In this document: piece by piece, positions 2,269-10,282 of the stretch
Layout: every line of letters begins with the position of its first letter
Numbering within the stretch: the stretch's first letter is position 1
NCBI GenBank assembly: GCA_003228095.2
Contig: QGNM01000007.1
Span: forward strand, 1-58,803
Source: Chloroflexota bacterium
GTDB lineage: Bacteria; Chloroflexota; Dehalococcoidia; Lucifugimonadales; UBA2962
Direction of reading: 5' to 3'
Length of the DNA: 58,803 bases
Made by a program: the position numbers and the translations under genes
The notes under the pieces: generated by a model
The model's input: the letters and a program-made list of their open reading frames with translations, nothing else
Told to the model about the DNA's origin: nothing
Databases searched by the model: none

Positions 2269-2355
<87 letters not shown>

Positions 2356-2546: not shown

Positions 2547-3536
2547 TTGACTTCTTCTTCTTCTTCACACATAACGCTGACTAAATTCTGTGAAACTCAA
2601 TATAAAGGTTCTGACACATATGATGGTCTTGAAGCAGTAATAAATGCTATCGCATCAGGCGCTTATGAGCTTGAAAGTCAAATTCGAAATGGGAATTTAC
2701 TTGGAATGCTTGGCTCTACTGGTGATATAAATATACAAGGTGAGATTGTACAGCAATTAGATTCAATCAGTTCAGACACATTTGTGCGAAAATTTCAAGA
2801 TTCGATGCACGTGGCAATGGTTGGGTGTGAAGAAATTGAACATCCGGTACTATTTGAAAATAGCGACCAGAGCGATCAGCATGATTATATTGTTTTAATG
2901 GACCCTTTGGATGGGTCATCTAATATAGACGTGGCTGTAAGCATCGGGTCTATATTTGGAATTTGGAAACGGCAAAACTCAAAGACCTTAAGTCCAGAGT
3001 CATTGCTTAGACCAGGAGCAGAACAAATTGGAGCTGTGTATGTTGTATATGGTTCTTGTACAGTTTTAGTAGTAGCAACACAGGATAAAGTAAATGAATT
3101 CACAATGAACCCCGCAAATGGAGAGTTTCATTTGACTTCAGCTGACATTAGCTATCCAAATAAAACTCCTTACTATAGTGTTAATGACGGGAATACAGCA
3201 CGGTGGATTAATGGAATTGTGCAAGCCGTAGATGAACTGAGAGATGGACGCTCGCAAAGATACATTGGTTCTCTTGTAGCTGACTTTCACAGAAACCTCA
3301 TAAAAGGTGGTGTTTTTCTATACACTGCGGATACCAAAAACACGGATGGCCGTCTAAGATTAATGTATGAAGCCAACCCTTTGGGATACGTCTCTGTGCA
3401 AGCTGGAGGAGCTGTTTCAGACGGGATGAATAATATCTTGGAAATTCAACCTGTTGAGCTCCATCAAAGAGTGCCATTAATTATCGGAGATAAGGGATTG
3501 GTAAATCAGGTTATTAAGACTATTAAATCTAGTTAA
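2547..3536 (+). CDS. fbp: Fructose-1,6-bisphosphatase, class I
   Basis: Hydrolyses fructose-1,6-bisphosphate to fructose-6-phosphate, the committed step of gluconeogenesis. The metal-binding motif DPLDGSSN is at residues 119-126, and the C-terminal substrate region has MYEANPL and a GG-containing loop, all class I (eukaryote-like) features. The length of 329 is normal. The start is TTG, preceded by AGGA at six bases, with a serine-rich first eight residues. The aldolase that makes its substrate follows 25 bases downstream, so the pair forms a gluconeogenic unit behind the promoter at 2478. Confidence 0.96.
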   Translation: MTSSSSSHITLTKFCETQYKGSDTYDGLEAVINAIASGAYELESQIRNGNLLGMLGSTGDINIQGEIVQQLDSISSDTFVRKFQDSMHVAMVGCEEIEHPVLFENSDQSDQHDYIVLMDPLDGSSNIDVAVSIGSIFGIWKRQNSKTLSPESLLRPGAEQIGAVYVVYGSCTVLVVATQDKVNEFTMNPANGEFHLTSADISYPNKTPYYSVNDGNTARWINGIVQAVDELRDGRSQRYIGSLVADFHRNLIKGGVFLYTADTKNTDGRLRLMYEANPLGYVSVQAGGAVSDGMNNILEIQPVELHQRVPLIIGDKGLVNQVIKTIKSS

Positions 3537-3561: not shown

Positions 3562-4587
3562 ATGAAAAACAAAAGCTTAGAACAAATAGCCGCTTCCATA
3601 GTGGCTCCAGACAAAGGGATCTTAGCTGCTGATGAAAGTTCCCCAACGATAAAAAAGCGCTTCGATTCTATAAATGCGGAATCTACTGAAAAAAATCGTC
3701 GCGACTATCGTGAAATGTTATTCAAAACCAAAAATATTTCTCAATATATCAGTGGAGTCATTCTGTTTCATGAAACTATCTATCAAAAAGATTCCAATGG
3801 CAAACCTCTTGTTGAGGTTCTCACGGATCAGGGGATAGTCCCAGGAATCAAAGTTGATAAAGGGGCCAAGCCATTAGCAGGTCATCCGAATGAAACTATA
3901 ACTGAAGGTTTAGATGGATTGAGAGAACGACTTGATGAGTATTCGAAAGCAGGTGCACAATTCACAAAATGGAGAGCCGTTATATCAATTGCAAATTCCA
4001 TTCCATCTAATTACTGCATTCAAGCAAACGCACACGCTTTGGCTCGATATGCAAGCCTAAGTCAAGAGGCTGGGCTTGTGCCAATTATCGAGCCGGAAGT
4101 CTTAATGGATGGAGCCCACAATATAGACGAATGTTATAGAGTTACAGAATCTGTTTTAACAGAAGTTTATGCGCAGTTAGCAGATAGTAAGGTTGAACTT
4201 AAAGGCACGCTTTTAAAGCCAAATATGATTATGAGCGGAAAATCAGCCGTCAATCGTGCTACTCCTGAAGAAGTTGCTCAAGCCACAGTATCTTGTTTTC
4301 AAAATACGGTACCTTCCACAGTTCCAGGTATAGTTTTTCTTTCTGGCGGGCAAAGTGATAGTGAAGCAACAATTAATTTAGATGCTATTAATAGGCAGGC
4401 CAAAGAAACTGGCGCCCCTTGGCAATTAAGTTTTTCCTATGGTAGAGGGCTTCAATCAGCGCCATTAAATGCATGGAGAGGCAAAAAAGATAACATGGCA
4501 AAAGCACAAAATGTTTTTTTCCAAAGAGCCCTGTTAACTAGCGCAGCTCGGAATGGAGCATACGATATAGGCATGGAGGCAGTATAG
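3562..4587 (+). CDS. Fructose-bisphosphate aldolase, class I
   Basis: Cleaves or condenses fructose-1,6-bisphosphate with dihydroxyacetone phosphate and glyceraldehyde-3-phosphate through a lysine Schiff base. GILAADES (19-26) is the class I signature, TKWRAV is near residue 135, and LLKPNM places the Schiff-base Lys at 219. At 341 residues it matches the eukaryote-like class I family, not the zinc-dependent class II enzyme. It sits directly after fbp, supporting a gluconeogenic role. Its last codons contain the Shine-Dalgarno sequence of the next gene. Confidence 0.96.
   Translation: MKNKSLEQIAASIVAPDKGILAADESSPTIKKRFDSINAESTEKNRRDYREMLFKTKNISQYISGVILFHETIYQKDSNGKPLVEVLTDQGIVPGIKVDKGAKPLAGHPNETITEGLDGLRERLDEYSKAGAQFTKWRAVISIANSIPSNYCIQANAHALARYASLSQEAGLVPIIEPEVLMDGAHNIDECYRVTESVLTEVYAQLADSKVELKGTLLKPNMIMSGKSAVNRATPEEVAQATVSCFQNTVPSTVPGIVFLSGGQSDSEATINLDAINRQAKETGAPWQLSFSYGRGLQSAPLNAWRGKKDNMAKAQNVFFQRALLTSAARNGAYDIGMEAV
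4575..4586 (+). promoter_or_regulatory. Shine-Dalgarno and AUA start that fix the rdgB 5' end
   Basis: GGAGG at 4575-4579, inside the last aldolase codons, lies four bases before ATA at 4584-4586. The ATA overlaps the aldolase stop TAG (4585-4587). No ATG, GTG or TTG exists in frame between there and the conserved THNAGK motif, so ATA is the best start. Confidence 0.6.
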
Positions 4588-5189
4588 AACTTCTAATAGC
4601 AACTCATAATGCAGGCAAATACCGGGAATTTGCTAGTGCCCTTCAGTCGATGAGGATAAATGCACTAAGTTTAAAGGCGCTAGGAATATCACAAAAAGTT
4701 GAAGAAACCGGACTTACTTTTCAAGAAAACGCGACACTCAAAGCTACCGAATATTACTCTATTAGCAATATTCCAACCCTAGCAGATGACTCGGGTCTAA
4801 TTGTTGATGCTCTTAAAGGAGCCCCAGGAATCAGATCTGCTCGATATGCAGGGGAAAATGCGACTGATCAACAAAACCGAGATAAGCTTCTTTATGAAAT
4901 GACAAACATTCCATTGCACATGCGAAAGGCTGCCTTCGTTTGCGCAATTGCAGTTATCGTATTGCCAAACAAAATTAAGGTGTTTCAAGGGAGAGTAAAT
5001 GGCAGCATTGCCTCTGGAGAAACGGGTGCAATGGGTTTTGGATACGATTCAATATTTATCCCAAACGATGAGCAACGTACGATGGCTCAATTAACAGATT
5101 TAGAAAAAATAAAAATTAGCCATCGAGGCATTGCACTACGAAAAACTAGTAATTGGCTCAGAAACTCTCGTATATTAGAAGAAGGATAA
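4584..5189 (+). CDS. rdgB: Non-canonical purine NTP pyrophosphatase (RdgB/HAM1)
   Basis: House-cleaning enzyme that hydrolyses dITP, ITP and XTP to the monophosphate and pyrophosphate, keeping deaminated purines out of DNA. The family's N-terminal nucleotide motif ATHNAGK lies upstream of the first ATG (4650), which would give a truncated 179-residue protein. Reading from ATA at 4584 gives 201 residues, the usual family size, beginning (M)ELLIATHNAGK. Other family motifs are LADDSGL, GAPGIRSARYAG and the C-terminal ISHRGIAL. GGAGG four bases upstream and overlap with the aldolase stop suggest translational coupling. ATA is a rare but accepted start codon; a sequencing error at that base cannot be excluded. 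Confidence 0.9.
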   Translation: MELLIATHNAGKYREFASALQSMRINALSLKALGISQKVEETGLTFQENATLKATEYYSISNIPTLADDSGLIVDALKGAPGIRSARYAGENATDQQNRDKLLYEMTNIPLHMRKAAFVCAIAVIVLPNKIKVFQGRVNGSIASGETGAMGFGYDSIFIPNDEQRTMAQLTDLEKIKISHRGIALRKTSNWLRNSRILEEG

Positions 5190-5196
5190 TTGTAGA

Positions 5197-6222
5197 TTGA
5201 AGCGTAAAAAAGAAATAATAGACCAATTAAAACGGCCAATTAAAGATCTTAGGATATCAGTTACGGACCGCTGTAACTTCCGATGCGCTTATTGTATGCC
5301 AGCTGAAATATATGGGGAACGATACGAATTCCTCGATCAAGAAAAACTCCTAACATTTGAGGAGATTAACCGCGTCACACGACTGTTAGTAAGTCTTGGC
5401 GTTCGAAAAGTTAGAATAACTGGTGGAGAACCATTAGTAAGAAGGGATATTAATGTTTTAGTTAAGCTTATATCTAGCATAGATACTCTCTCAGATATAG
5501 CAATGACAACCAACGGTTATTTATTACCCAAAATGGCTCAATCACTTAAGACAGCTGGTCTTACGCGATTGACGGTTAGCCTGGACACTCTTGATGATGA
5601 AATTTTTCGAAAAATGAATGGACGTAACTTTGGAGTAGAAAGTGTGCTGCAAGGAATCGAAGCCGCTAGCAAAGCTGGATTTCATCCAATCAAAATTAAC
5701 TCCGTTGTGCAAAAAGGAGTTAATGACCATACGATAACTACTTTAACTGAATATTTTCTAGAAAAAGGACACATCGTGCGTTTCATTGAATACATGGATG
5801 TAGGCACTCTCAATAACTGGAACATGAAACATGTAGTACCCGGAAACGAAATTGTTGCTAAAATCAACGAAACCATTCCGATTGAACCCATTGGCCCTCT
5901 CTATAAAGGTGAGGTAGCCAAGCGGTATCGGCAAAAAAATGGAACGGGAGAGATAGGCATTATTGCTTCCGTCACAAATCCATTCTGCGGTGATTGTACT
6001 AGGCTACGACTTTCTCCAGAAGGTAGTTTATACACCTGTCTATTCGGATCAAAGGGTACAGACCTAAGGACACCTTTAAGAGATGGCGCGTCAGACCCAG
6101 AACTTGTTGAAATAATTTCTAATACATGGCTCAGCAGGAACGATAGATACTCTGAGACACGTAGCGTCAATGCTAGTAATAGTAATAACAAAAAGGTCGA
6201 AATGTATCATATAGGCGGATAA
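5197..6222 (+). CDS. moaA: GTP 3',8-cyclase MoaA
   Basis: Radical-SAM enzyme that starts molybdenum cofactor synthesis by converting GTP to 3',8-cyclo-7,8-dihydro-GTP. The SAM [4Fe-4S] cluster motif is C26-x3-C30-x2-C33, followed by TGGEPL near residue 75. The C-terminal substrate-binding cluster is visible as CGDCTRLRLSPEG with a third Cys in YTCLF. The protein ends in Gly-Gly, as functional MoaA proteins do. The start is TTG, seven bases after the preceding stop. The next gene carries MoaC, the following step, so the two act together. Confidence 0.97.
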   Translation: MKRKKEIIDQLKRPIKDLRISVTDRCNFRCAYCMPAEIYGERYEFLDQEKLLTFEEINRVTRLLVSLGVRKVRITGGEPLVRRDINVLVKLISSIDTLSDIAMTTNGYLLPKMAQSLKTAGLTRLTVSLDTLDDEIFRKMNGRNFGVESVLQGIEAASKAGFHPIKINSVVQKGVNDHTITTLTEYFLEKGHIVRFIEYMDVGTLNNWNMKHVVPGNEIVAKINETIPIEPIGPLYKGEVAKRYRQKNGTGEIGIIASVTNPFCGDCTRLRLSPEGSLYTCLFGSKGTDLRTPLRDGASDPELVEIISNTWLSRNDRYSETRSVNASNSNNKKVEMYHIGG

Positions 6223-6249: not shown

Positions 6250-7152
6250 GTGATAGACATATATACAGATGGAGCATGTTCAGGCAACCCAGGGCCAGGG
6301 GGTTGGGGTGCCGTTGTCATTATTGAAGGGCAACAAACTATCTTGAAAGGTGGGGTAGGTGACACGACCAATAATCGTATGGAGTTGATTGCTGTTATTG
6401 AAGGACTGAAGTGCCTATCACCTAAATCAAACGTAACTGTACATACTGATAGCACTTATATAACCAACACAATGACAAAAGGGTGGCGAAGAAAAGCTAA
6501 TAACGACCTTTGGCAAGAATTAGATGCTGTGGTATCCAAACAATCCGTAACATGGGAGTGGGTCCGAGGGCATTCTGGAAATCCTCTCAATGAACTAGCT
6601 GATTCAATAGCTTTCAAAGAATCGCAATCACGAATCACACAAAAAACGCAGAGTCCAACAAAAAAAAACCGAATGCAGATTGATGGCAAATTAAGTCATG
6701 TGGATGATACAGGTAATGCAAGTATGGTAGATGTTAGTTTAAAAGCCACCACTTTTAGGATAGCAAAAGCCGAAGGGTGGGTTTACATGAAGCCTTCAAC
6801 TCTTGCATTAATTAAAGAAAATGCAATTAGCAAGGGTGATGTTTTAAGCGTAGCTAAAGTAGCCGGAATAATGGCTTCTAAAAAAACCTCTGATTTAATT
6901 CCATTATGTCACCCAATTCCAGTAGATAAAGTTTCGCTAGAACTGTCAATCGATGAAAATGAAAATGCTATCCATGTTATTTCAGAAGTTTCAACAAATG
7001 GTAAAACTGGGGTTGAGATGGAGGCTTTAATGGCTGTTTCAATTTCGTGTTTAACAATCTACGACATGTGCAAATCTGTTGAACGAACAATAAAGATAGA
7101 TGGCATTAGATTGTTAAAAAAGACGGGTGGCAAGCATACCTACAGCGTATGA
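6250..7152 (+). CDS. Fusion of ribonuclease HI and MoaC (cyclic pyranopterin monophosphate synthase)
   Basis: One continuous 300-residue frame joins two unrelated enzymes. Residues 1-125 are RNase HI, which cuts RNA in RNA-DNA hybrids; the catalytic set D7, E45, D67, D118 and the flexible-loop His108 are all present. A polar linker of about 20 residues follows. Residues 145-300 are MoaC, the step after MoaA in molybdenum cofactor synthesis, with LSHVDDTG, LCHPIP, the ME motif in GVEMEAL, and KTGGKHTY at the end. There is no stop or frameshift between the halves. An ATG at residue 142 could in principle start MoaC alone, but no Shine-Dalgarno precedes it. MoaA lies just upstream, so the MoaC half fits its neighbours; why RNase HI is attached is unclear. 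Confidence 0.93.
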   Translation: MIDIYTDGACSGNPGPGGWGAVVIIEGQQTILKGGVGDTTNNRMELIAVIEGLKCLSPKSNVTVHTDSTYITNTMTKGWRRKANNDLWQELDAVVSKQSVTWEWVRGHSGNPLNELADSIAFKESQSRITQKTQSPTKKNRMQIDGKLSHVDDTGNASMVDVSLKATTFRIAKAEGWVYMKPSTLALIKENAISKGDVLSVAKVAGIMASKKTSDLIPLCHPIPVDKVSLELSIDENENAIHVISEVSTNGKTGVEMEALMAVSISCLTIYDMCKSVERTIKIDGIRLLKKTGGKHTYSV

Positions 7153-7189: not shown

Positions 7190-7822
7190 ATGATCAATCC
7201 TTCTGAATTAAGAGGTTTAATACCTCGATTATCAAAAAGAAGAAAACTTAATACTCCTAAATTAATTGTTTTAGGGATTGGAAATCCTGGAAACGAATAT
7301 CACAATACGCGGCATAACGCAGGGTTTTGGGCGATAAAAACAATAATTGATAAATACCAATTAGACTTGAATTCAAATAAGACTTCGTATGATTCCTGGA
7401 TAGGTAAGCTATATAGCGAAACAATAGTAATTGGAAAATCAAAAACTTATATGAATGATAGCGGCTTGGCGGCAAAAGCCTTACTTAAAGAGTACAAGGC
7501 GTCTTCAAAGTGCTTATTAGTAATCTATGATGATATGGATATCGAGCCAGGTAATATTAGATTGAAAAAGCAGGGTGGCCCTGGCGGACACAACGGCATG
7601 AAATCCATCATCGAACGTATCGGAACTAATGATTTTCCAAGGTTAAGAATTGGAATTGGACGCCCATCAAGATACCAAGATACTGTATCTTATGTTTTAT
7701 CTAGCCCGCGTACAACAGAATCCCAAGCAATAGCATTAATCTTGGATCAAACTGATGAAATTTTAAATGGCATCGTATCCAAAGGGTTAAATGCAACAAT
7801 GGAGTGGACTAATAGGTCTTAA
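7190..7822 (+). CDS. pth: Peptidyl-tRNA hydrolase
   Basis: Releases tRNA from peptidyl-tRNAs that drop off the ribosome. GIGNPG (30-35), the catalytic His42 in TRHNAGF and the GGPGGHNG loop are all intact. At 210 residues it is slightly long because about 22 basic residues precede the usual beta strand LIVLGIGNPG. It is the last rightward gene before a convergent junction with a Kelch lipoprotein gene, 23 bases away. Confidence 0.96.
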   Translation: MINPSELRGLIPRLSKRRKLNTPKLIVLGIGNPGNEYHNTRHNAGFWAIKTIIDKYQLDLNSNKTSYDSWIGKLYSETIVIGKSKTYMNDSGLAAKALLKEYKASSKCLLVIYDDMDIEPGNIRLKKQGGPGGHNGMKSIIERIGTNDFPRLRIGIGRPSRYQDTVSYVLSSPRTTESQAIALILDQTDEILNGIVSKGLNATMEWTNRS

Positions 7823-7823
7823 G

Positions 7824-7848
7824 TAAAATCAACTGCTATACGATTTTA
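7824..7848. terminator. Short hairpin at pth/Kelch convergent junction
   Basis: TAAAATC (7824-7830) pairs perfectly with GATTTTA (7842-7848) across an 11-base loop. It lies between two convergent genes and overlaps the end of the Kelch gene. The AT-rich stem gives A/T tracts on both strands, so it could end transcription both ways. Weak on its own. Confidence 0.3.
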
Positions 7849-9018
7849 ACGACTAAATCTTTCAACTTCAGACAAAATCATTTCTTTGCCGTTACCACCA
7901 AGTACAAGTACAGTCCCGTCATTCAACATTACAGAAGCATGTCTAAATCTTGGTTCTTCCATATTAGCCAAAACTGCCCAGGTATCGGTTTCCGGGTCAT
8001 ATATTTCAGATGAACTTCGATTACCCATACCCCCAGCAACGATTACCTTGCCGTCTGCTGTAATTACAGCTGTATGTTGTCCTCGAGGCTCTGATAAATC
8101 TGGAGTCCTTGTCCATGTGTTAGCTGCCGGATCAAATATCTCAGCATTATTTCTCTTTCCTCGACCACCAACCACCAATACTCGTCCATCTTGCAATAAG
8201 GTCGCCGTATGGGAATGTCTGCTTATTGCCATTGGTGAAGCGGTTGTCCAAGTGTCTGATTCGGAGTCATAAATTTCGGCTGATTTAAGATAAGGGCCAT
8301 CTTCCTTACCGCCTCCAGTTACTAGCACCCTTCCGTCTTGCAATACAGTAACGGTATGATTAGCCCTTTTATCAACCAGAGAAGATATTTCTGTCCAAGT
8401 GTCAGTTGCTGGATCATATATCTCGGCCGTTTTATGCAGGCCATAGTTCACGTTGTAACCCCCGGACACAAAAAACCTTCCATCACTCAAAACCGCTCCT
8501 TTAACTTCGTCTCTGGGTTCTAACATAGGTGCTATAGATTCAAATTCTCCTGTTGCAGAATCCCATATCTCTGCATCAGGATATGCATGAGTTAGAATAC
8601 CTCTGCCTCCAGCGACTATAACCCTTCCATCAGGCAGCAGCCCCGATGCAAAAGCATATCGGTTTATAGCCATCACGCCAGTAAATGTCCAAGTATCTGC
8701 GCTCGGGTCATATATTTCTGCGGTTTCAAAAATATATGTGTTATGGCTTGTTTTCTCCCCAAGTCCTTTGCCTCCCATCACCAATACTTTTCCATCATCT
8801 AGCAAAATTGCCGAGTGTTGTATTCGGAAATTTTTCATATCTGCGACCCGTACAAATTCACCAGGCGGCGTAGACTCAGATGAACCGCTATCTGAAACTT
8901 CTTCTTCTTGTTGATTGTTATTTGTCGGATTTGTCACCTCCGGATCACCGGAAGAACCACAAGAATAACTGAAAACAAAAAGAGCACATAACGTTACAAT
9001 TAAAAATAAAACTTTCAT
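7846..9018 (-). CDS. Kelch-repeat beta-propeller lipoprotein
   Basis: A secreted lipid-anchored protein by sequence: a hydrophobic signal segment (about 3-19) ends at C20 (SYSC), although the lipobox is not ideal. A Ser/Glu-rich linker follows, then seven Kelch repeats of 45-50 residues from about residue 58. Each repeat has the pattern DGxVLVxGG, then AEIYDP, then DTW; the last is shorter and would close a seven-bladed propeller. No catalytic motif is seen, so the role may be carbohydrate or protein binding at the cell surface. The upstream neighbour is a clear paralogue. Confidence 0.85.
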   Translation of the reverse strand: MKVLFLIVTLCALFVFSYSCGSSGDPEVTNPTNNNQQEEEVSDSGSSESTPPGEFVRVADMKNFRIQHSAILLDDGKVLVMGGKGLGEKTSHNTYIFETAEIYDPSADTWTFTGVMAINRYAFASGLLPDGRVIVAGGRGILTHAYPDAEIWDSATGEFESIAPMLEPRDEVKGAVLSDGRFFVSGGYNVNYGLHKTAEIYDPATDTWTEISSLVDKRANHTVTVLQDGRVLVTGGGKEDGPYLKSAEIYDSESDTWTTASPMAISRHSHTATLLQDGRVLVVGGRGKRNNAEIFDPAANTWTRTPDLSEPRGQHTAVITADGKVIVAGGMGNRSSSEIYDPETDTWAVLANMEEPRFRHASVMLNDGTVLVLGGNGKEMILSEVERFSR

Positions 9019-9032
9019 ATTTGACTCGCTTT

Positions 9033-10244
9033 TTATGGTGTAAACAACTCTGTTTCAGCCAGTAGCCCCTCTTTACTATTGCCGCCAATGACTAAAATTT
9101 TTCCACTGTCTAGTACGATCATCTGATGTCGATACCGAGTATCATGCATATCCAGGGTTCTTGTCCAGTTGCCTGTATCATGGTTAAATATTTCGCCTGA
9201 AATTCTTAAACCTATGCCACCCGTAACCAACACTCTTCCATCTTGCATTAATATTGCAGAAGCCTCAGACCTTGGTATTTCAGTATTTCCTACCTTAGTC
9301 CAAATATCGGTTATAGGGTTGTAAATTTCAGTAGTTAATTTTTTCCCACGACCGCCCACTATTAGAACATTTCCGTCTGAAAGTTTTACGGCGCTATGCG
9401 AAGCCCGGCCTGTACTCATCTCTGCGGTGGGCGCCCAAGTATCAGTTGTTGGATCGTAAATCTCACTAGTTTTTTCGTACGGTGGATCCAGCTTTCCACC
9501 TCCAGTAACTAACACTCTCCCATCATCAAGCAGAGTTGCGGTGTGTCGCGCTCTGGCCACCGACATAGGCGCAGCTTCAGACCATTTACCGGTAGAAGGA
9601 TCCCAGATTTCTGCAGTTACCTCCATGGCATAATCTCTTTCTTCGCCACCCATAATCAATACACGTCCATCATTTAGAGTTAGGCATGGCATGTAATCGC
9701 GTCCTGTATTTAAGTTTCCAGTCTGAGACCACTCTCCCGTTTCAGGGTCCCAAACTTCAGCTGTAGCCATGGCCATATTAAGTTTTCCTCTTCCTCCGGC
9801 AGCTAAAACTTTTCCGTCCTGTAATAAAGAGGCACAAAGATCATGACGTTGATCCACCATAGATCCAGTCAAGCTCCATTCATCGGAATCAGAGTTATAA
9901 AGTTCAGCTGACTCATAAATCGTATTGTTCAGATTGGCTCCTGGGCCACGTCCGCCTACCACAAAGACTCGACCATCGGACAATTTAATTGCACTATGTA
10001 ATTGCCTGGCAGCTTTCATTTCATCAACGAGAACAAACTCGCCTTGAGACCCCTCTGGCGCAGGCATTTCACCACTTTCAATCACTACTGAATCGCTCGG
10101 GTCACTGACGCCAACAGAGTCGCCTGATTCTGAATTGCCTCCACACCCATTAATTACAATCAATAAGCCTACTGCCCAAACTAAAGCGATCAACTTGATA
10201 ACGCTATAACTTCGTATATTTAATATTCTTAAACTCGTTCGCAT
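9033..10244 (-). CDS. Kelch-repeat beta-propeller lipoprotein (paralogue)
   Basis: Same architecture as the gene just downstream: a hydrophobic leader ending VINGC (lipid-modified Cys at residue 34 of this start), a short acidic linker, then seven Kelch repeats with DGRVxVxGG, AEIWDP or SEIYDP, and W motifs. I place the start at the ATG at 10244 because GGAG lies five bases before it; a TTG at 10262 would add six residues. The stop is 14 bases from the next gene's start, so the pair is probably one transcript from a tandem duplication. Ligand unknown. Confidence 0.85.
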   Translation of the reverse strand: MRTSLRILNIRSYSVIKLIALVWAVGLLIVINGCGGNSESGDSVGVSDPSDSVVIESGEMPAPEGSQGEFVLVDEMKAARQLHSAIKLSDGRVFVVGGRGPGANLNNTIYESAELYNSDSDEWSLTGSMVDQRHDLCASLLQDGKVLAAGGRGKLNMAMATAEVWDPETGEWSQTGNLNTGRDYMPCLTLNDGRVLIMGGEERDYAMEVTAEIWDPSTGKWSEAAPMSVARARHTATLLDDGRVLVTGGGKLDPPYEKTSEIYDPTTDTWAPTAEMSTGRASHSAVKLSDGNVLIVGGRGKKLTTEIYNPITDIWTKVGNTEIPRSEASAILMQDGRVLVTGGIGLRISGEIFNHDTGNWTRTLDMHDTRYRHQMIVLDSGKILVIGGNSKEGLLAETELFTP

Positions 10245-10282
10245 CTTTACTCCAAGAAACAATGGTTTCTGCTTTAAAAAAA

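Follow-up and report, generated by a model that had tools for sequence, protein, structure and literature searches.

The nearest known kind of protein to the one described here is the actinobacterial RNase HI-CobC fusion (Rv2228c, MSMEG_4305 and SCO2299; PRK07238), with background on Rv2228c given in PMC4429107. As described in PMC7466739, these proteins consist of an N-terminal RNase HI, a variable linker and a C-terminal cofactor-biosynthesis enzyme and are confined to one lineage, all of which resembles the protein reported here, and the RNase HI of Rv2228c is likewise without the basic protrusion. They differ in the partner, which is CobC (cobalamin) there and MoaC here, as well as in the better-conserved half, which is the RNase H in RNase HI-CobC (PMC7466739) and the MoaC in RNase HI-MoaC. 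Removal of the partner domain from MSMEG_4305 had little effect, and the authors concluded drift (PMC7466739). RelZ (MS_RHII-RSD) of Mycobacterium smegmatis also combines an N-terminal RNase H with a nucleotide-metabolising enzyme, but its RNase H is an RNase HII, its partner is a (p)ppGpp synthetase and its isolated domains are reported to be inactive (PMC7591505). The RNase HI of B. halodurans and eukaryotic RNase H1 likewise carry an extra domain, and the RNase HI is handle-less in B. halodurans (PMC1950709). That extra domain binds dsRNA or hybrids, whereas MoaC is an enzyme. To our knowledge, MoaC has no known nucleic-acid binding.

With respect to MoaC, fusions with MoaB, MobA or MOSC are represented by profiles (PRK03604, PRK14500, PRK14499) and share with the present protein that MoaC is joined to another protein, but their partners come from the same or a neighbouring pathway and MoaC forms the first part of the profile. 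For Archaea, MoaC itself, MoaE and MoaB are named as partners of MoaC (PMC11237513), and the accessible part of PMC6147048 reports molybdoprotein fusions without RNase HI-MoaC among them. Here we describe an RNase HI-MoaC fusion encoded in a 58,803-nucleotide stretch of Chloroflexota DNA (the window). We found no paper on RNase HI-MoaC among the literature matches listed, judged by titles and abstract openings, and no model of this pair among the NCBIfam profiles matching the protein, and we therefore take the pairing to be new as far as searched, RNase H-enzyme fusions and fusions of MoaC with pathway partners being already known. Wider sequence databases may already contain such proteins under automatically assigned names.

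Gene organization and integrity of the reading frame

A first-pass annotation of the window had proposed that RNase HI and MoaC are encoded in one frame with intact catalytic residues in both halves, and this is borne out by the present analysis. The 300 codons run without an internal stop (Table 1), Pfam recognizes RNase_H at residues 4-124 (PF00075, 119.9 bits, cut-off 25.8) and MoaC at residues 159-294 (190.5 bits, cut-off 27), and both the D/E/D/H/D residues of RNase H and the MoaC set are all present. The window genome (G000), which is metagenome-assembled (1.36 Mb, 77.5% complete), contains one RNase HI match and one MoaC match, both inside the fusion gene. Profiles of known fusions fit the protein poorly: PRK07238 scores 52.5 bits (cut-off 326), with no acid phosphatase/CobC domain in the protein, and the MoaC-MoaB, MoaC-MOSC and MoaC-MobA profiles match through their MoaC part only, at 191.2, 189.3 and 138.1 bits against cut-offs of 285, 457 and 606.

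The annotation had also feared a sequencing error hiding a stop between the domains, and the window does come from an incomplete metagenome-assembled genome. However, four genus-mates match the protein over its full length at 72-81% identity, and the search for the same domain pair in other genomes finds the frame open in many further assemblies, with full-length identities of 42-81%, and 41 of 60 sampled genomes of the order are fused. An assembly or sequencing error is thereby refuted for the family, and we regard it as a practically negligible explanation.

Table 1. Features of the fusion locus (positions in the window).
Feature	Position	Strand	Remarks
Class 1 fructose-bisphosphatase	2547..3536	+	Pfam/NCBIfam matches
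Class I fructose-bisphosphate aldolase	3562..4587	+	Pfam/NCBIfam matches
rdgB (XTP/dITP diphosphatase)	4584..5189	+	Probable ATA start 4584 rather than ATG 4650
moaA (GTP 3',8-cyclase)	5197..6222	+	Directly upstream of fusion gene
RNase HI-MoaC fusion gene	6250..7152	+	300 aa, GTG start, stop 7150-7152
N-terminal RNase HI domain, residues 1-125	6250..6624	+	Handle-less, catalytic D/E/D/H/D present
Linker, approximately residues 126-146	6625..6687	+	Length and charge vary among relatives
C-terminal MoaC domain, residues 147-300	6688..7149	+	Catalytic residues present
pth (peptidyl-tRNA hydrolase)	7190..7822	+	Downstream of fusion gene

The genes follow each other in the order fructose-bisphosphatase, aldolase, rdgB, moaA, fusion and pth, with 27 bases between the end of moaA and the start of the fusion gene, and pth is found downstream in 17 of the 70 fused loci having the DNA to tell. 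The rdgB gene appears to begin at an ATA codon. This codon (4584-4586) overlaps the aldolase stop (ATAG) and lies 4 bases past a GGAGG (window 4575-4650); a start at the first ATG (4650) would lose the conserved IATHN-GK motif, and the relative L032 has an identical rdgB start sequence without an in-frame upstream ATG, GTG or TTG. Known RNAs in the window are limited to one tRNA (2269-2355, minus strand), with no moco riboswitch. Two adjacent similar frames on the minus strand (7846-10262) have, by eye, the look of Kelch-repeat lipoproteins.

The RNase HI half

The RNase H of the window is of the type without the basic "handle", a point that went unremarked in the first-pass annotation, whose identification of the fusion otherwise stands: the equivalent of D70 is separated from the conserved W of helix D by 21 residues, versus 34-35 in handle-bearing proteins. 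Its score against the NCBIfam RNase HI equivalog (PRK00203, NF001236) is 146.1 bits, 14 bits below the cut-off of 160, which the missing handle may explain. The equivalents of D10, E48, D70, H124 and D134 (E. coli RNase HI numbering) are all five present. Every fused RNase H examined is handle-less or nearly so, with a spacing of 27 in G025 and G058 and an intermediate one of similar size in G087.

In 75 fused loci, of which 70 remain once five duplicates of other rows are removed, E48 and D70 are kept in all 75, D10 in 73 of the 74 with a letter at that position and H124 in 71, being lost in the other four. The D134 position is more variable, being D in 47 copies, N in 22, H in 5 and W in 1; an N at this position can be compatible with activity. 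The NPGPGG loop is missing in about 12 of 70 fused copies (15 flagged, including one X, one fragment and one insertion), and in three genomes (G172, G090 and G098) the RNase H half is weak and no second RNase HI was found. Since the RNase H half is eroded in some copies, its activity should not be assumed for every one of them. For the window genome, where the fused copy is the sole RNase HI found and D10, E48 and D70 are kept, it probably supplies the working RNase HI. This genome (77.5% complete) gave no RNase HII match, whereas 56 of the 60 genomes sampled in the order gave one.

In 54 of 62 scored genomes, no RNase HI other than the fused copy was found. RNase_H scores below 100 bits are observed in four of the eight genomes with a second RNase HI versus three of the 54 without (Fisher, P = 0.004; Mann-Whitney rank comparison of the scores, P = 0.04), in a test that ignores relatedness, uses a threshold picked after viewing the scores, omits the fragment G147 and was run once including and once excluding G020, which has a divergent second copy. 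The fused protein of G047 (L111 3862-4902) has D10 replaced by A, has lost H124 and D134 and carries a 75-aa acidic linker; this genome also has a separate handle-bearing RNase HI, and its family-mate G010 has the separate copy only. Four further genomes (G182, G143, G157 and G110), related to genomes with an eroded RNase H half in the fusion, have moaC after moaA without RNase H between, their RNase HI being represented by weak matches only (47-57 bits) located elsewhere. A different arrangement, with two tandem RNase_H domains in one 323-aa frame, is seen in another Chloroflexota class (G321, contig C15 122278-123183).

The MoaC half and the cofactor pathway

The MoaC half passes the cut-off of its equivalog (TIGR00581, 201.6 bits, cut-off 141.5) and has residues aligned with E. 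coli K51, H77, E112, E114, D128 and K131, of which K51, H77, D128 and K131 are catalytic in MoaC. The positions of E. coli K51, K67, H77, E112, E114, D128 and K131 are identical in all 75 fused copies, and mean pairwise identity is higher for MoaC than for RNase H (57% versus 51%; 2415 pairs, 70 fused proteins). Solved MoaC relatives are hexamers. MoaE is found in 53 of 60 relatives, including three of five genus members, indicating that the cofactor pathway is generally present, and we therefore put its absence from the matches of the window's own genome down to incompleteness. Ten further proteins of the window were scanned, with no molybdoenzyme among them.

Distribution across Chloroflexota

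Among 60 sampled genomes of the order (that of the window is one of them), each classified from fetched DNA, 41 have the two genes fused in one frame and 15 have RNase HI as a separate frame immediately before moaC, usually with a stop and a start that abut or overlap, while one has RNase HIII before moaC (G028), one has moaC but no RNase H neighbour (G010) and no MoaC match was found in two (G029, 74% complete; G051, 71% complete). RNase H is thus immediately upstream of moaC in 57 of the 58 order genomes having MoaC. Of 148 genomes drawn evenly from the class, 139 belong to other orders, and at least 22 of these 139 carry the fusion. Among the matches listed, no full-length fusion is seen in 263 genomes of other classes, where weaker fusions could escape, and the full-length fusion rows listed for 301 phylum genomes are those of G000, G076 and G025. 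No RNase_H match lay beside moaC in any of 30 genomes selected because their MoaC frame is long or their moaC has no RNase H neighbour (15 from other classes, 15 from the same class). The gap between moaA and moaC in G094 (L152) holds, by eye, a glyoxalase-like frame and not an RNase H.

These counts modify two aspects of the initial interpretation. The fused pair itself stands, but as a lineage-wide architecture rather than a local oddity; and while MoaC does fit beside moaA, the view that it is the only half to fit does not hold, since RNase H is the regular neighbour of moaC in this order.

Types of RNase H upstream of moaC

We observe three kinds of RNase H before moaC, namely handle-less RNase HI, either fused or separate, handle-bearing RNase HI, invariably as a separate gene, and in a single case RNase HIII. 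Of the 48 handle-less proteins in the order sample, 41 are fused, versus none of the eight handle-bearing ones, which lie directly before moaC in 8 of the 60 genomes. Handle-less RNase H is found unfused beside moaC in seven of the 60 and in three fetched from another order. In typing these loci, L001, L124 and L032 were skipped as repeats of others (L032 being judged a repeat of L003). The handle-bearing proteins form a group apart from the handle-less ones (SH-aLRT 100), which also holds a Pedobacter row, and in G010, G026, G032, G042 and G047 a handle-bearing RNase HI occurs alone elsewhere in the genome. Within families f11 and f28, the place taken by a handle-less fusion in one genome is taken in another by a handle-bearing gene (G050 and G014; G155 and G031, G108).

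In G028 the place is occupied by a 301-aa RNase HIII (L089 5834-6739; TIGR00716, 217 bits, cut-off 161.2) that meets moaC in a TAATG junction, with the rdgB-moaA context retained, and no RNase HI was found in this genome (90% complete). RNase HIII stands in for RNase HI at this one locus, and the two enzymes have been described as inherited mutually exclusively (PMC1950709). This swap of occupant is the strongest indication that RNase H is retained next to moaC by more than chance, although recombination into a conserved operon could also explain the replacement.

Origin of the fusion

The proposal that the fusion started as an in-frame join of neighbouring genes is supported by the unfused loci: in 11 of 22, the moaC start codon lies at most 2 bases from the RNase H stop, six at -1 (ATGA/GTGA overlap) and five at +2 (TAATG), and the remaining 11 have a possible moaC start within approximately 20 bases of that stop. 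The sister loci L034 (fused) and L044 (split) are closely alike throughout the region, and at the L044 junction one inserted base and a deletion of three bases, together with substitutions, give an rnhA stop overlapping the moaC ATG. Such unfused neighbours appear to show the step before, or after, fusion. The source would be adjacent rnhA and moaC genes inside the moaA operon, the stop of one overlapping the start of the other, and a frame change at their junction would have removed the stop and left one frame.

In the RNase H tree, 51 of 102 inner branches are open and the label "fused" changes 9 times; in the MoaC tree, the corresponding figures are 61 of 118 and 26. The repeated changes on both trees suggest that fusion and splitting happened more than once, with a number that is not reliable, and neither tree, both being poorly resolved, demonstrates a single clean origin. 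The RNase H tree is a quick tree without bootstrap, from which five duplicates and five fragments or odd rows (L086, L115, L123, L142 and L165) were taken out and for which 14 Nitrospira-type rows were thinned; for the MoaC tree, identical rows were merged (127 to 121).

Linker and predicted structure

Linkers of the fused proteins span 2-75 aa with a median net charge of 0 (22 positive, 31 negative and 17 zero of 70), indicating that the linker is not a conserved functional element; a basic linker acting as a nucleic-acid binder is ruled out by the same median. An AlphaFold2 monomer model from a 36-row alignment (mean pLDDT 90.0, pTM 0.53) has two confident domains, with pLDDT below 50 at residues 134-146, in line with a disordered linker. 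The handle helix is missing from the model, in which helix 69-77 is directly followed by helix 85-95. Among PDB structures, the model best matches cPMP-bound E. coli MoaC (4pyd), and its RNase half is matched best by E. coli RNase HI (1rbs). The low pTM would fit two domains without a fixed mutual arrangement.

Functional interpretation

We consider it likely that the fusion is a working two-activity protein derived from a translationally coupled gene pair, with domains that are probably independent. The N-terminal handle-less RNase HI would degrade the RNA of RNA-DNA hybrids, and the C-terminal MoaC, expected to form a hexamer, would form cPMP from the 3',8-cH2GTP made by MoaA, the product of the upstream gene, with a flexible, unconserved linker tying together domains that probably act independently. 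The fusion would persist because the genes were already co-translated, by operon economy or drift. The fusion and its spread, the intact catalytic residues, the unfused pairs that overlap and the fused and split sisters are read directly from the genomes; the two activities, the independence of the domains and co-expression as the reason for persistence are what we infer. By analogy with MSMEG_4305, drift or operon inertia would be the sober default for this fusion. However, 57 of 58 genomes have an RNase H ahead of moaC, and of differing types, which exceeds what simple drift would predict. This counts against our preferred explanation, as do the erosion of the RNase H half in some copies, the sub-threshold score of the window copy against the RNase HI equivalog and the lack of a MoaE match in the window's incomplete genome. 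One answer would be an "RNase H slot" kept by selection, in which RNase H activity must be made together with MoaC and in which a handle-less occupant can become fused, giving a multi-copy RNase H displayed on MoaC; we think this unlikely. A slightly more doubtful idea is that the MoaC hexamer serves as a scaffold for six handle-less RNase H domains, with avidity or contact replacing the substrate-binding handle. The restriction of fusion to handle-less or nearly handle-less proteins (41/48 versus 0/8) is in line with this idea, as are reports that the isolated RNase H of Rv2228c is slower than the full protein, with the partner suspected in the role of the handle (PMC7466739), and that the hybrid-binding domain of the B. 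halodurans enzyme has been proposed as a handle substitute (PMC1950709). However, the handle-bearing proteins are one clade, so that the contrast may reflect a single historical event; unfused handle-less RNase H genes stand next to moaC as well (7 of 60, plus the three from another order), sister genomes switch between fused and split (L034/L044) and the linkers are not basic.

Returning to the two-activity reading, one may ask whether each half matters. That the RNase H is a passenger on its way out and MoaC alone matters would be in line with the lower identity of the RNase H half (51% versus 57%), the decay in G047 beside a retained handle-bearing RNase HI, the presence in its family-mate G010 of just the separate enzyme and the lower scores where a second RNase HI exists (4/8 versus 3/54). 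We nevertheless find this very unlikely, with the fused copy being the sole RNase HI found in 54 of 62 scored genomes and D10, E48 and D70 being kept in most. It is slightly less credible still that MoaC is also made alone from a start inside the linker, which would make the fusion partly nominal. An in-frame ATG does occur in the linker region of 31 of 70 fused genes, including MQIDGK in the window, and 23 have some start codon with a purine-rich stretch ahead. However, ATG, GTG and TTG are all missing from this region in 22 of 70, for which reason a conserved internal MoaC start is dismissed as a general feature, 47 of 70 are without any start preceded by a purine-rich stretch, and two linkers are just 2 and 5 aa long.

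As far as the tests reach, RNase HI-MoaC adds, from another phylum, a second example of a cofactor-biosynthesis enzyme joined to a handle-less RNase HI. Chloroflexota provide natural controls in the form of fused, overlapping and split close relatives, decayed copies and loci in which the RNase H has been replaced in place, making functional coupling versus gene-order inertia in such fusions directly testable. For the organisms themselves, the arrangement means that the molybdenum cofactor genes probably share their expression with RNase HI and, through it, perhaps with R-loop control.
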